From Candidatus Eiseniibacteriota bacterium (GTDB lineage Bacteria; Orphanbacterota; Orphanbacteria; Orphanbacterales; Orphanbacteraceae): a stretch of 64,000 nt of DNA. The notes under the pieces were generated by a model. That model was not told the DNA's origin, did not search any database, and was given only the letters and a program-made list of their open reading frames with translations. Below, in pieces: positions 24,808-30,733 of the stretch. The stretch is taken from the NCBI GenBank assembly GCA_024276995.1, contig JAJRWB010000054.1, positions 48,830 through 112,829 on the forward strand, in the 5' to 3' direction. The position numbers and the translations under genes were made by a program. The number at the start of each line of letters is the position of its first letter. Position 1 is the stretch's first letter.

Positions 24808-25908
24808 ATGAACGTACCATTTGTCGATCTTAAGGCGCAGTACAGTACGATTCGCGACGAAATCCACGATGCCATGGAGAATATCCTGGAAAACACGGCA
24901 TTCATCGGGGGGAAGCCGGTGGCAGATTTCGAGAAGGCATTCGCCGCCTATTGCGGCACATCCTTCTGCGTCGGCACCAGCTCCGGTACGTCGGCGCTTC
25001 ATGTGGCGCTCAGCGCGTGCGGCGTCGGTGAAGGGGACGAGGTGATCACCGTGCCGAACACGTTCATCGCGACCGCCGAGGCGATCGAGCACTCGGGCGC
25101 CGCCTTCCGTTTCGTCGATGTCGACGAGGCCACGTCGAATATCGATCCCGCGCTCATCGAGGAAGCGATCACGCCGAAGACGAAGGCGATCATGCCGGTC
25201 CACCTCTACGGGCGCCCGGCGCCGATCGACGAGATCCTCGGCATCGCTGAAAAGCACGGTCTCATGGTGATCGCCGATTCGGCGCAGGCCCACGGCGCCG
25301 TGTGCAACGGCAAGAAGATGGGGGAAGGGGTCCGCGCGGCGGGTTTCAGCTTCTATCCCGGCAAGAATCTCGGCGCCTACGGCGACGCGGGCGCCCTCGT
25401 GACGAACGACGAAAAGGTGGCGGAGAAGGCGCGCAGCCTGATCGACCATGGCAGGAAGGACAAGTTCGCACACTCGTCGTCGGGCTTCAATTACAGGCTC
25501 GACGCAATGCAGGCGGCGATACTCGATGTCAAGCTCCGGCACCTCGACGAGTGGATCGAAAACCGCCGGCGCGTCGCCGCGCGCTACCGCGAACTCCTCG
25601 CCCCGCTCGACATCGAAGTGGCGCGGCATGACGCCGATTGCGAGAGCGTGTATCATATCTTTCCTGTGTGGCACGACGACAGGGACCGTCTCCGCGAGCG
25701 CCTCGGCGAGAGGGGGATCGCCTGCGGGATCCATTATCCGATCCCGCTGCACCTCCAGGAGGCGTACGCCCGTCTCGGGCTCGGCGAGGGCGATTTTCCC
25801 GTCGCCGAACGGCTCGCGCGGAGGGAATTGTCGCTGCCGGTCTACCCCGAAATGACCGATGAACAGATCGAGTATGTCGCCGGCGCGCTGGCGGAGGAAC
25901 TCGCCTGA
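24808..25908 (+). CDS. DegT/DnrJ/EryC1/StrS-family sugar aminotransferase
   Basis: PLP-dependent enzyme, 366 residues, that converts a keto-sugar nucleotide to an amino sugar. Hallmarks are VPFVDLKAQY at the N-terminus, GTSSGTSALHVAL (cofactor phosphate binding), VITVPNTFIATAEAI, IMPVHLYGRPAP, VIADSAQAHGA and the Schiff-base lysine in FSFYPGKNLGAYGDAG. The C-terminus has GIHYPIPLHLQEAY. GGAG lies before the ATG. Its substrate may be a 3-keto sugar made by the Gfo/Idh oxidoreductase at 27449 or the RfbB product; sequence alone does not decide. Confidence 0.93.
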   Translation: MNVPFVDLKAQYSTIRDEIHDAMENILENTAFIGGKPVADFEKAFAAYCGTSFCVGTSSGTSALHVALSACGVGEGDEVITVPNTFIATAEAIEHSGAAFRFVDVDEATSNIDPALIEEAITPKTKAIMPVHLYGRPAPIDEILGIAEKHGLMVIADSAQAHGAVCNGKKMGEGVRAAGFSFYPGKNLGAYGDAGALVTNDEKVAEKARSLIDHGRKDKFAHSSSGFNYRLDAMQAAILDVKLRHLDEWIENRRRVAARYRELLAPLDIEVARHDADCESVYHIFPVWHDDRDRLRERLGERGIACGIHYPIPLHLQEAYARLGLGEGDFPVAERLARRELSLPVYPEMTDEQIEYVAGALAEELA

Positions 25909-25942
25909 TCCGCGGCGCGCGGCGAAGGAGAAGGAGAGAATC

Positions 25943-27424
25943 GTGAAGGGGAACCTGGCCGAGCTGAGAGTGAAGAGGGCGCGCCGTCGCGTGCTCCTCC
26001 TTCTCGCAGCCGACATGGTGTGCATCGGCGCCAGCTTCCTCTCGGCTTATTGGTTCCGTCTCCTCTCCGGATTCTTCACGCGCAGCATACCGATCGAGCG
26101 TTCTCACTACATCACCCTCGCGGCGGTGTGCGTCATGTGGGCGGTCATCCTGAGCGCCCACGGCCTCTACCGGCGTCAAGTCTACCTGTCGGTTTTCGAC
26201 CAGATGGTGGCGGTGTTCAACTCGGTCAACCTCGGCGTGCTTCTCCTCCTCGCCCTGGCGTTCGTCTTCAAATTCGAGTACTTCCTCGAACGGAGGCTCG
26301 TTCTCCTCGCGGCCTGGGCGCTGGCGATCCTGCTGCTCATCTTCGTCCGGGTCGTGATCATCCGGGGAATCCTCCTGAGAAGGATCCACCGCGATCCGTT
26401 CCGGAGAAGGATCCTCGTGGTCGGCGCCGGCGAATCGGGAAGGCAGTTCGTCAACCTGGTGAAGCACACGAGGAACCACGTCTTCGAGATCGTCGGTTAT
26501 CTCGACGATGACCCGGAAAAGCAGAAGAAGGAATACGAAGGGTTCCGGGTGCTCGGCACGGTGGACGATGTGCGCGAGGTGGTGGAGAGGCTGAACGTCG
26601 AGCGGGTGTTCGTGGCGATCCACAAGCTTCACCAGGAGGAGATGATCGACCTGATCTCCCGGTGCATGAAATGCCACGTTCCGGTGAAGATGATCTCCGA
26701 CCAGTTCCACATGTTCACCTCCGGCGGCACGATCGAACGGATCGACGGCGTTCCCACGCTTCACGTCAGCGATAACACGATGCGGGGGGCGGCGTACGTG
26801 ATGAAACGCACCTTCGACGTGGTCACCGCGGCGATGCTCCTGGTGGTGCTCTCACCGCTGTTCGCGCTCATCGCGCTGATCATCAAGGTCGCCGGGGGGA
26901 AGGGTCCCGTCTTCTTCCGCCAGAGCCGCGCGGGACACGGCGGAAAGCCGTTCAACTTCTACAAGTTACGCACCATGCGCACCGACGCGGACGACCAGGT
27001 GCACAGGGAGTACGCGAGGGATTTCGTCGCCGGCGAAGATCTGAAGCTGTCGAAGAACCCGTCGACGCCGGTCTACAAAATGAAGCGCGACCCGAGGGTC
27101 ACGCCGATCGGGCAGCTCCTGAGAAAAACGAGCCTCGACGAGCTGCCCCAGCTCTTCAACGTGCTGCGCGGCGAAATGAGCCTCGTCGGGCCCCGCCCGC
27201 CGATCCTTTACGAGCTACAGTACTACCGGGAGTGGCACAAGCGACGGCTCGATGCGAAACCGGGCCTCACCGGCCTGTGGCAGGTGAGCGGAAGGAGCAG
27301 CGTTCCGTTCAACGAAATGGTATTATTGGATCTGTATTATATCGATCACTGGTCGCTGAAGCTGGATTTCGAAATCCTCCTCCGTACCGTTCCGGTGATT
27401 CTTTTCGGCAAGGGAGCTTACTGA
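25943..27424 (+). CDS. Long polyprenyl-phosphate glycosylphosphotransferase (WbaP/WcaJ type)
   Basis: 493 residues. Four N-terminal TM segments (about residues 15-130) are followed by a Rossmann-like CoA-binding-type domain ([31 protein letters not shown]), another hydrophobic re-entrant helix ([20 protein letters not shown]) and the catalytic core ([61 protein letters not shown]). The GTG at 25943 with AAGGAG 6 bases upstream was preferred to an in-frame ATG at 25859 lying inside the aminotransferase gene. It is the second initiating transferase in this operon. Confidence 0.92.
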
Positions 27425-27448: not shown

Positions 27449-28459
27449 ATGAAGCGCATCGCTGTGATCGGCTGCGGATACTGGGGGCCGAATTTCGTCC
27501 GAATCTTCACCAACCTTCCCGAATCGGAAGTGAAATACTGCTGCGACTTGAGCGAGAAACGCCTGGAGCAGATGAAGCTCCTCTACCCCCACATCCACAT
27601 GACCACGAACCTCGACGAAGTCGCCGCCGACCCGGAAGTGGACGGCGTGGTGGTGGCCACCCCGGTGCGTTCCCACTATCCAGTGGCGAAAAAGATGATC
27701 GAGGCGGGGAAGCACTGTCTCATCGAAAAACCGCTGTGCGCTTCCTCCGCCGAGGGGGAGGATCTCCTCGCCCTGGCACGCAAGCACGGCGTATCGGTCA
27801 TGGTGGGCCATACGTTCCTGTTCACCGCCGCGGTGAACAAGGTGAAGGATCTTCTCGACGCCGGCGAGCTGGGGGAGATCTACTACGTCAACTCCACGAG
27901 GGTGAACCTGGGGATCTTCCAGGAAGACATCAACGTCGTATGGGATCTCGCGCCCCACGATATTTCGATACTGAATTACGTGTTCGGCGCCGACCCGATC
28001 TCGGTGAGCGCCCGCGGCCGGTCGTACATCCGCGACGGCGTAGAGGACATGGCGTTCATCACCCTCGAATACCCCGAAGGGAAGATGGCCCATGTCCACG
28101 TGAGCTGGCTCGACCCGAACAAGATCCGGCGCACCACTTTCGTGGGAAGCCAGAAGATGGTGGTCTACGACGACGTGCAGCAGCTCGAGAAGATACGGAT
28201 CTTCGACAAGGGCGTCGACAAGCAGCCCCATTACGAGACGTTCGGCGAGTTCCATCTCGCCTATCGTTTCGGCGACATCTTCACGCCGAAACTCGACGAC
28301 CGCGAACCGCTCAAGGCGGAGGCGAGCCATTTCATCGAAACGATGGAAGGGGGGAAGTCGACCAAGGCGACGGGCGGCGAGGGCCTCACCGTGGTCCGCA
28401 TTCTCGAGGCGGCGTGCGATTCGCTCCGGAAGAAGGGCGCCCTCGTGCAGCTTGCCTAG
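27449..28459 (+). CDS. Gfo/Idh/MocA-family sugar-nucleotide oxidoreductase
   Basis: NAD(P)-dependent dehydrogenase, 336 residues. The Rossmann motif is IAVIGCGYWGPNFVR, the conserved lysine is in GKHCLIEKPLC, and the second domain has LAPHDISILNYVFG and THVSWLDPNK-like strands (actual AHVHVSWLDPNK). It resembles WlbA-type enzymes that oxidise C3 of UDP-GlcNAc-derived uronates. With the DegT aminotransferase in the operon, a 3-amino sugar is a plausible product, though no partnering hexapeptide acetyltransferase is seen. GGGG lies before the ATG. Confidence 0.9.
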   Translation: MKRIAVIGCGYWGPNFVRIFTNLPESEVKYCCDLSEKRLEQMKLLYPHIHMTTNLDEVAADPEVDGVVVATPVRSHYPVAKKMIEAGKHCLIEKPLCASSAEGEDLLALARKHGVSVMVGHTFLFTAAVNKVKDLLDAGELGEIYYVNSTRVNLGIFQEDINVVWDLAPHDISILNYVFGADPISVSARGRSYIRDGVEDMAFITLEYPEGKMAHVHVSWLDPNKIRRTTFVGSQKMVVYDDVQQLEKIRIFDKGVDKQPHYETFGEFHLAYRFGDIFTPKLDDREPLKAEASHFIETMEGGKSTKATGGEGLTVVRILEAACDSLRKKGALVQLA

Positions 28460-28475: not shown

Positions 28476-29573
28476 ATGAAGGGAAAGAGGATCCAGTTCA
28501 TCGACACCGGGCGCTCCTTCGGAGGCGCGGAAAGGGTCACTCTCGCCCTCGCCTCGGCGTTCCTCGCCGAAGGGGCGGACGTGGAGTGCCTCGTCGACCG
28601 ACACGCCTTCCCATTCGTGGAGGAACTGTCCGGGGCGGGGATCCCGGCACGCGCGGTCGACGAGACCGACCGGCCGGGCCGGATCGGCGCCCTTGGAGCC
28701 GAAGTCCGCCGCTTCGATCCGCATATCGTTCACCTGCAAAGGACGTGGCCTCTTTCCGATCGGTACGCTTCCATCGCCGTCCGCCGCGCCTCGAAGGCGA
28801 GGTTCGTGGCCACCGAACATGTCCGCTTCGAAGGATGCGGCCTCCGGGACCGCCTGGCGAAGGGGATCCTCTGCCGGTTCGATCACCGACTCGTCGCCGT
28901 ATCGCGCGCCGTGGGGGAGAGCCTCGAACGGTTCTGGAAGGTCCCGGCATCGAAGATCGCGGTGATCCCGAACGGTATCGACGTCGGTCGATTCCGCCGC
29001 GGCGGCGGGGAGGGTCGGCGAGGCGGACTTTTTCCCGAACGGTGCACCTTTCGCATCGGCGCGGTCGGACGGCTCGAGTAGCAGAAGGGTTTCTCCGTTC
29101 TTCTTCGCGCCATGGGCGCACTCCTCGCGGAAGAACCGCGCGCGGTGCTCGTCATCGCCGGCACGGGCTCGCTGCGCGAACGGCTCCGCGCCGAGGCTGA
29201 AAACGCGGGGATCGGTCGATCGGTCGTCTTCGCCGGCGCGGTGGAGGACATCGCGTCGTTTCTCGGCGAACTCGACCTGTTCGTCCTCCCCTCGCTCTGG
29301 GAGGGGCTGCCGCTGACCATTCTCGAGGCAATGGCGGCTTCCGTCCCGATCGTGGCGACGGCGGTCGACGGCACCGCCGAGGCGGTACGCCATGAACGAG
29401 AGGCGCTCCTCGTCCCGCCGGGGGACGCACCCGCCCTCGCCGCGGCGTGCCTCGCGGCGAGGAACGACCGGGAAGGACGGATGAAGCGTGCCGCCGCCGC
29501 CGCCGAGCGCGTGGCGCGGTCGTTCTCCCTCGAAACGATGATCGATCGCTACCGGGAGGTGTACGCGCCGTGA
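28476..29573 (+). pseudogene. Family 4 glycosyltransferase interrupted by an in-frame TAG
   Basis: The frame reads as one normal GT4 protein of about 365 residues apart from a single TAG at 29079-29081. The N-terminal part (28476-29078, 201 codons) has IDTGRSFGGAERVTLALA, IVHLQRTWPLS, VAVSRAVGES and IAVIPNGIDVGRF, ending at IGAVGRLE. The frame continues after the stop without shift: QKGFSVLLRAMGALL, AVLVIAGTGSLRERL and LPSLWEGLPLTILEAMA (the GT4 E-x7-E donor site). The stop falls in the GRL-x-QKG loop that opens the donor domain. The C-terminal piece could restart at 29112. The final stop still overlaps the next gene as GTGA, so the lesion is recent or a sequence error. Confidence 0.85.
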
Positions 29574-30733
29574 AGAGGATCATCGGTTTCTCATCGATCC
29601 CGGTCGATCGCGCCGCGAGCGGCGGAGCGGAGCGGATCGCCGAACTTTATCGCCACCTGCCGGCCGACCGCTTCGACACGACCTTGGTGACGCTCACCGG
29701 GATGAGGGATCGCCGCGGAACGGTCGAGCTCCCCGGAAAGGTGCGCAACGAGAAAATCCCGTCGCCGGCGCAGTCCCTCTTTCATCACCTCGGCACGGCG
29801 CGCCTCGTGCCGTTCTTCCAGGTCCACCGTTTCCACGATGCCTTCCCCCTCGGCGCGGAGGCGTTTCTCCGGGAAGGGGCGGACATCGTCCAGTTCGATT
29901 CCCTCTGACTCACCCCGTGGGCGCGCCGCGTTCCGACCGGAACACCCGTGATCTATGCCAGCCATAATTTCGAGACCGAGTGGTACCAGGGTCAGCTGCG
30001 CCGCTACCCCTTTCGCGCCTTCCACGAACGCTCCCTTTTCGAACTCGAGAAAAGAGCGGTCGATCGCGCCGATCACGTGATCGCCGTCACGCCGGAAGAC
30101 AAAGAGAAGATGATCTCCCGCCTCGGCGCGGACGGCGACAAGATCACGGTGATCCCGAACGGCTACGACGACACGACGATCACGCCGGTTCGACGCGAAG
30201 AAAGAATCGCCGTCCGGCGCGCACTCGGCCTTCCCGAGAGAGGGACGATCGCCCTTTTCTGCGGATCGGCGGTGCCGCCCAACATGGACGCGGCCGAGTC
30301 GATCACCGGCGTGATCGCCCGCCGGGCGCCGAAGGGGGTCACCTTTCTCATCGCCGGCGGCGTGGGGGAGGCGATGCCGTCGAAAATGCCGGATAACTGC
30401 GTGGTCACCGGAAGAGTGCGTCGGATGACGCCCTTCCTGCGCGCGGCGGACATCGGTCTCAATCCGGTCCGCCTCGGTTCCGGTTCGAACATCAAGGTTC
30501 TCCAGTACATCGGAAGCGGTCTGCCGGTTCTGTCCACGCCGTTCGGCATGCGCGGCTTCGAAGATCTCGCGCCGTTCGTCACGATCAAACGGATCGATCT
30601 CTTTCACAGGCATCTCACGGAGCGCTCCCTCGCGCCGGAGGCGGTGGAACTCGTGCAGCACCGGTACGCATGGCGACGGGCGGCGCTCCGGCTCGCCACG
30701 CTCTACGATCGACTTCTGGAAAAGGGGCGGTGA
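29570..30733 (+). pseudogene. Glycosyltransferase (GT4-like) interrupted by an in-frame TGA
   Basis: The frame spans 387 codons with one TGA at 29906-29908. Before it (112 codons) are IGFSSIPVDRAASGGAERI and ADIVQFDSL. After it in the same frame are LTPWARRVPTGTPVIYASHN, FETEWYQGQL, ADHVIAVTPEDKEKM, ITVIPNGYDD, IALFCGSAVPPNMDA and the donor-site region GSGSNIKVLQYIGSGLPVLS. The order of motifs is that of a complete glycosyltransferase, so a single substitution (TGG to TGA would restore SLWLTPW) explains the break. The downstream part could restart at 29948 or so. It starts with GTG, overlapping the previous, also broken, gene. Selenocysteine is not expected here. Confidence 0.85.

Follow-up and report, generated by a model that had tools for sequence, protein, structure and literature searches.

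In-frame stops in two adjacent glycosyltransferase genes of a Candidatus Eiseniibacteriota assembly are part of a genome-wide excess of point-substitution stops, probably caused by consensus errors

Surface genes vary frequently, and in phase-variable surface polysaccharide genes the variation is tied to a repeat tract or an invertible element; to our knowledge, point stops do not serve as a reversible switch. Nonsense codons that interrupt conserved genes are also found among the pseudogenes of decaying bacterial genomes. They are normally purged by selection from genes of this kind, and real decay brings insertions and deletions as well. Mutators with a defective MutM/MutY/MutT system for oxidised guanine form a third comparison and base errors in the consensus of metagenome-assembled genomes a fourth.

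The window, which is the whole stretch of 64,000 nucleotides that was analysed, is part of contig C36 in an assembly of 3.76 Mb (81 contigs, 96% complete). Two adjacent GT4 glycosyltransferase genes, here called gene A and gene B, follow a series of surface-polysaccharide genes located 5' of the pair (flippase-type, GT2, O-antigen ligase-type, GT4, DegT aminotransferase, initiating sugar transferase and Gfo/Idh). The features referred to below are:

25859 to 27424, + strand: initiating sugar transferase (Bac_transf) gene, open, in the same cluster
27449 to 28459, + strand: Gfo/Idh/MocA oxidoreductase gene, open, upstream in the same cluster
28476 to 29573, + strand: gene A, coding for a GT4 glycosyltransferase and broken by a single in-frame stop (from translation; Pfam PF13439, PF13692, PF00534)
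29079 to 29081, + strand: in-frame TAG of gene A, in the C-terminal domain, where the aligned column varies among relatives
29570 to 29573, + strand: GTGA overlap, formed by the start of gene B and the stop of gene A
29570 to 30733, + strand: gene B, coding for a GT4 glycosyltransferase and broken by a single in-frame stop (from translation; Pfam PF13439, PF13579, PF13692)
29906 to 29908, + strand: in-frame TGA of gene B, in the N-terminal domain; the column is conserved and holds no cysteine in relatives

Both interruptions had been described in a first-pass annotation and both are present in the letters: in the frame that starts at ATG 28476 the TAG separates GRLE from QKGF, and in the frame that starts at GTG 29570 the TGA separates FDSL from LTPWA. 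The frame and the family motifs were said to continue past each stop, and both read-through frames carry the N-terminal GT4 domain and the C-terminal group-1 domain of GT4 enzymes above the Pfam cut-off. The GTGA that couples the two genes is intact, as had been noted. Neither stop falls at the joint between the two domains. The E-x7-E motif of the C-terminal domain is found as EGLPLTILE in gene A; in gene B (window 30400-30530) its place is taken by LGSGSNIKVLQYI, with both glutamates absent. A codon-usage scan of the window flagged both stops, and the other stops that it flagged resemble ordinary gene junctions or antisense frames.

A comparison with close relatives had been proposed as a check, and it shows no stop at either codon in six same-family genomes. 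The best homologues of gene A and of gene B in these six genomes are free of stops and align across the stop positions, one gene A homologue being truncated at a contig end. The two genes lie side by side in five of the six relatives (G001, G002, G003, G004 and G006), and in G005 the best matches are on separate contigs, with the gene A match running to the contig end.

The interruptions are not confined to this locus. A codon-usage scan gave many stops flanked by coding signal on both sides, some of them clearly within conserved proteins. For a quantitative comparison, samples were taken from this assembly (1.23 Mb, about a third of the genome), G001 (0.80 Mb) and G004 (0.40 Mb), likely genes were trimmed to their coding part, and the DNA of each genome was searched with proteins from the other genomes. 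Stops within alignments numbered 30 in this assembly, 16 in G001 and 14 in G004, and those with coding signal on both sides numbered 22, 4 and 5 respectively. Curation by eye, which was not blind, removed antisense or otherwise non-coding frames and kept 18 of the 22. This corresponds to 18 in-frame stops per 175,524 aligned codons, the two glycosyltransferase stops included, compared with 0 per 137,460 codons in G001 and at most 1 per 102,714 in G004 (Fisher p ~2e-6 with one stop counted in the controls). The excess persists when the glycosyltransferase stops are left out (16 versus at most 1), and the uncurated counts point in the same direction but more weakly. Stop counts per contig fit a single rate, and the excess is spread over the genome, beyond any one locus or function. 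Extrapolation from the sample suggests that the genome in total would hold about a hundred nonsense codons.

The genes broken elsewhere, named through the intact copies in relatives, are of diverse kinds. Stops were found, among others, in the genes for Lon, a sigma-54 activator, a BatD-like protein, a thymidine kinase, an aldehyde dehydrogenase and a phosphohexomutase, and further in those for an M28 peptidase, a GT9 transferase and the flagellar proteins FlgK and FliP (one in-frame TAG each, at L131:16329 and L148:3045 respectively). A LarE-like protein with a stop was named by its sequence alone, with no Pfam match at the threshold used. A gene for a McsB-like ATP:guanido phosphotransferase, located on contig C36 upstream of the window and whole in G001, is interrupted twice by an in-frame TAG, with 546 bases between the two positions (L048:17928 and L048:18474). 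The close spacing of the paired stops in this gene and in the glycosyltransferases may amount to a mild clustering, which would fit locally thin coverage. In a whole-genome search for ABC_tran domains, one internal stop was seen in this genome and none in G001-G004 among the matches listed. A set of essential-type proteins from E. coli gave one stop, in a glmM-like gene, among 67 genes and 18,917 codons, where about 1.9 would be expected; with so few codons the count speaks neither for nor against consensus error.

As a separate observation, the best match to ribosomal protein L3 in the part of the assembly covered is at L042:7453-8079 on contig C80, and the rest of the ribosomal operon is found on L179, contig C26.

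The 18 stops consist of 11 TAG, 5 TAA and 2 TGA. Their placement along the genes is compatible with a uniform distribution (KS p 0.46). Codons at the stops are as similar to the relative's protein as aligned codons in general, with no difference in identity (p 0.89). No frameshift in the sampled alignments of this assembly passed the filter, which recovered 42 of 80 simulated single-base deletions (sensitivity 0.53); at that sensitivity about 9 frameshifts would be expected if they were as common as the nonsense codons. Substitution-only stops that are blind to conservation and to position make up the pattern that is expected of consensus errors.

The two glycosyltransferase stops are therefore best seen as two of about a hundred scattered nonsense codons that arose by point substitution, and base-level error in the consensus is, in our judgement, their probable cause. 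A wrong base might have become fixed in the assembled consensus where coverage was locally thin, or through damage to the DNA or errors in the library. The origin of the nonsense codons would accordingly be technical and not biological, as we infer, and in the living organism genes A and B would be unbroken and would encode GT4 enzymes, coupled in translation, within a conserved surface-polysaccharide cluster. Very recent loss, phase-like variation and consensus errors had all been offered as readings by the first-pass annotation; the last of these has the strongest support, given that stops of this kind are found assembly-wide and hardly at all in the relatives. Against it stands the implied substitution rate. 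At ~1.2e-3 per base, if uniform, this rate is high where contigs exceed 100 kb, and real genome-wide mutation is for this reason still given a minor but appreciable probability.

Real mutation would mean that selection is relaxed over the whole genome or that the substitution rate is raised, for example by weak repair of oxidised guanine, and that many genes are truly broken. We regard this as possible but doubtful. A change compatible with G:C to T:A was found in 10 of the 12 stops for which a relative's residue permits an inference, against 52% expected (nominal p 0.03), and such a lean would fit oxidised guanine from library preparation and a mutator alike. The lean is weak because the stop at 29906, when all six relatives are considered, adds one of another substitution class. 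Guanine oxidised during library preparation is a known source of error, at far lower rates in the study concerned (PMC8748355). The search for MutM (fpg) gave no match in this genome, G002 or G003 and weak matches in G001, G004 and G005; G002 and G003, however, have no stop in ABC_tran domains among the matches listed. A broken MutY was also considered and rejected, as the gene is present here and intact. The ribosomal-protein and cell-wall genes that were sampled showed no stop, which speaks for real mutation, but strongly conserved genes are broken as often as others and the lack of detected frameshifts is unlike ordinary gene decay. The fullest form of this explanation, a deep uncultured lineage with a raised mutation rate and about a hundred real, substitution-only nonsense mutations in conserved genes, the two glycosyltransferases being among the casualties, appears improbable.

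It is likewise unlikely that the surface polymer is altered by a recent loss, or a reversible switch, directed at this polysaccharide operon. The location of the stops, in two adjoining and coupled genes of a class that often varies, speaks for such an explanation, but unrelated genes carry similar stops at a matching rate and contig C36 has 5 stops where 3.0 are expected, in line with the genome-wide rate. The locus has only short imperfect repeats, with no long or perfect repeat and no invertible element, and thus the part of the earlier reading that concerned loss or switching directed at the operon is not supported. The first-pass annotation had also called both glycosyltransferases terminal; as the sequence does not give the order in which sugars are added, this is a supposition.

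Read-through or recoding of the stops, for example with TGA as selenocysteine, is very improbable, since none of the six relatives has a cysteine at the TGA column, all three stop codons also terminate ordinary genes, and no stop-reading tRNA other than tRNA-Sec was found in 1.55 Mb of this assembly. A tRNA-Sec gene above the Rfam cut-off is present at L064:2962-3059 (G000:C75:142962-143055), and a candidate hairpin, considered without a shuffled control, can form 3' of the TGA. Given the tRNA-Sec gene, the lineage probably makes selenoproteins. As a reading of the TGA in gene B, selenocysteine was rejected on the missing cysteine homologues, and it would leave the TAG and TAA codons unexplained.

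The preferred reading, consensus error, warns against concluding from a single assembled genome that a pair of genes was lost or that the surface varies. Pseudogene calls in this genome need support from reads because conserved genes are broken at a similar rate throughout the assembly.

Compared with the systems introduced at the outset, genes A and B resemble phase-variable surface polysaccharide genes in belonging to a surface-polysaccharide cluster, but the locus lacks a repeat tract or invertible element and the breakage is genome-wide. They resemble the pseudogenes of decaying genomes in that nonsense codons interrupt conserved genes, but here 0 frameshifts were detected and strongly conserved genes were not spared. 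The weak G:C to T:A lean and the absence of a MutM match recall an oxidised-guanine mutator of the MutM/MutY/MutT type; on the other hand, MutY is intact here and the relatives without a MutM match are free of stops in the domains listed. The comparison with base errors in metagenome-assembled consensus sequences differs in the rate, which is high for such long contigs, and shares the following: substitution stops in otherwise whole genes, present in one assembly only and blind to both conservation and position.
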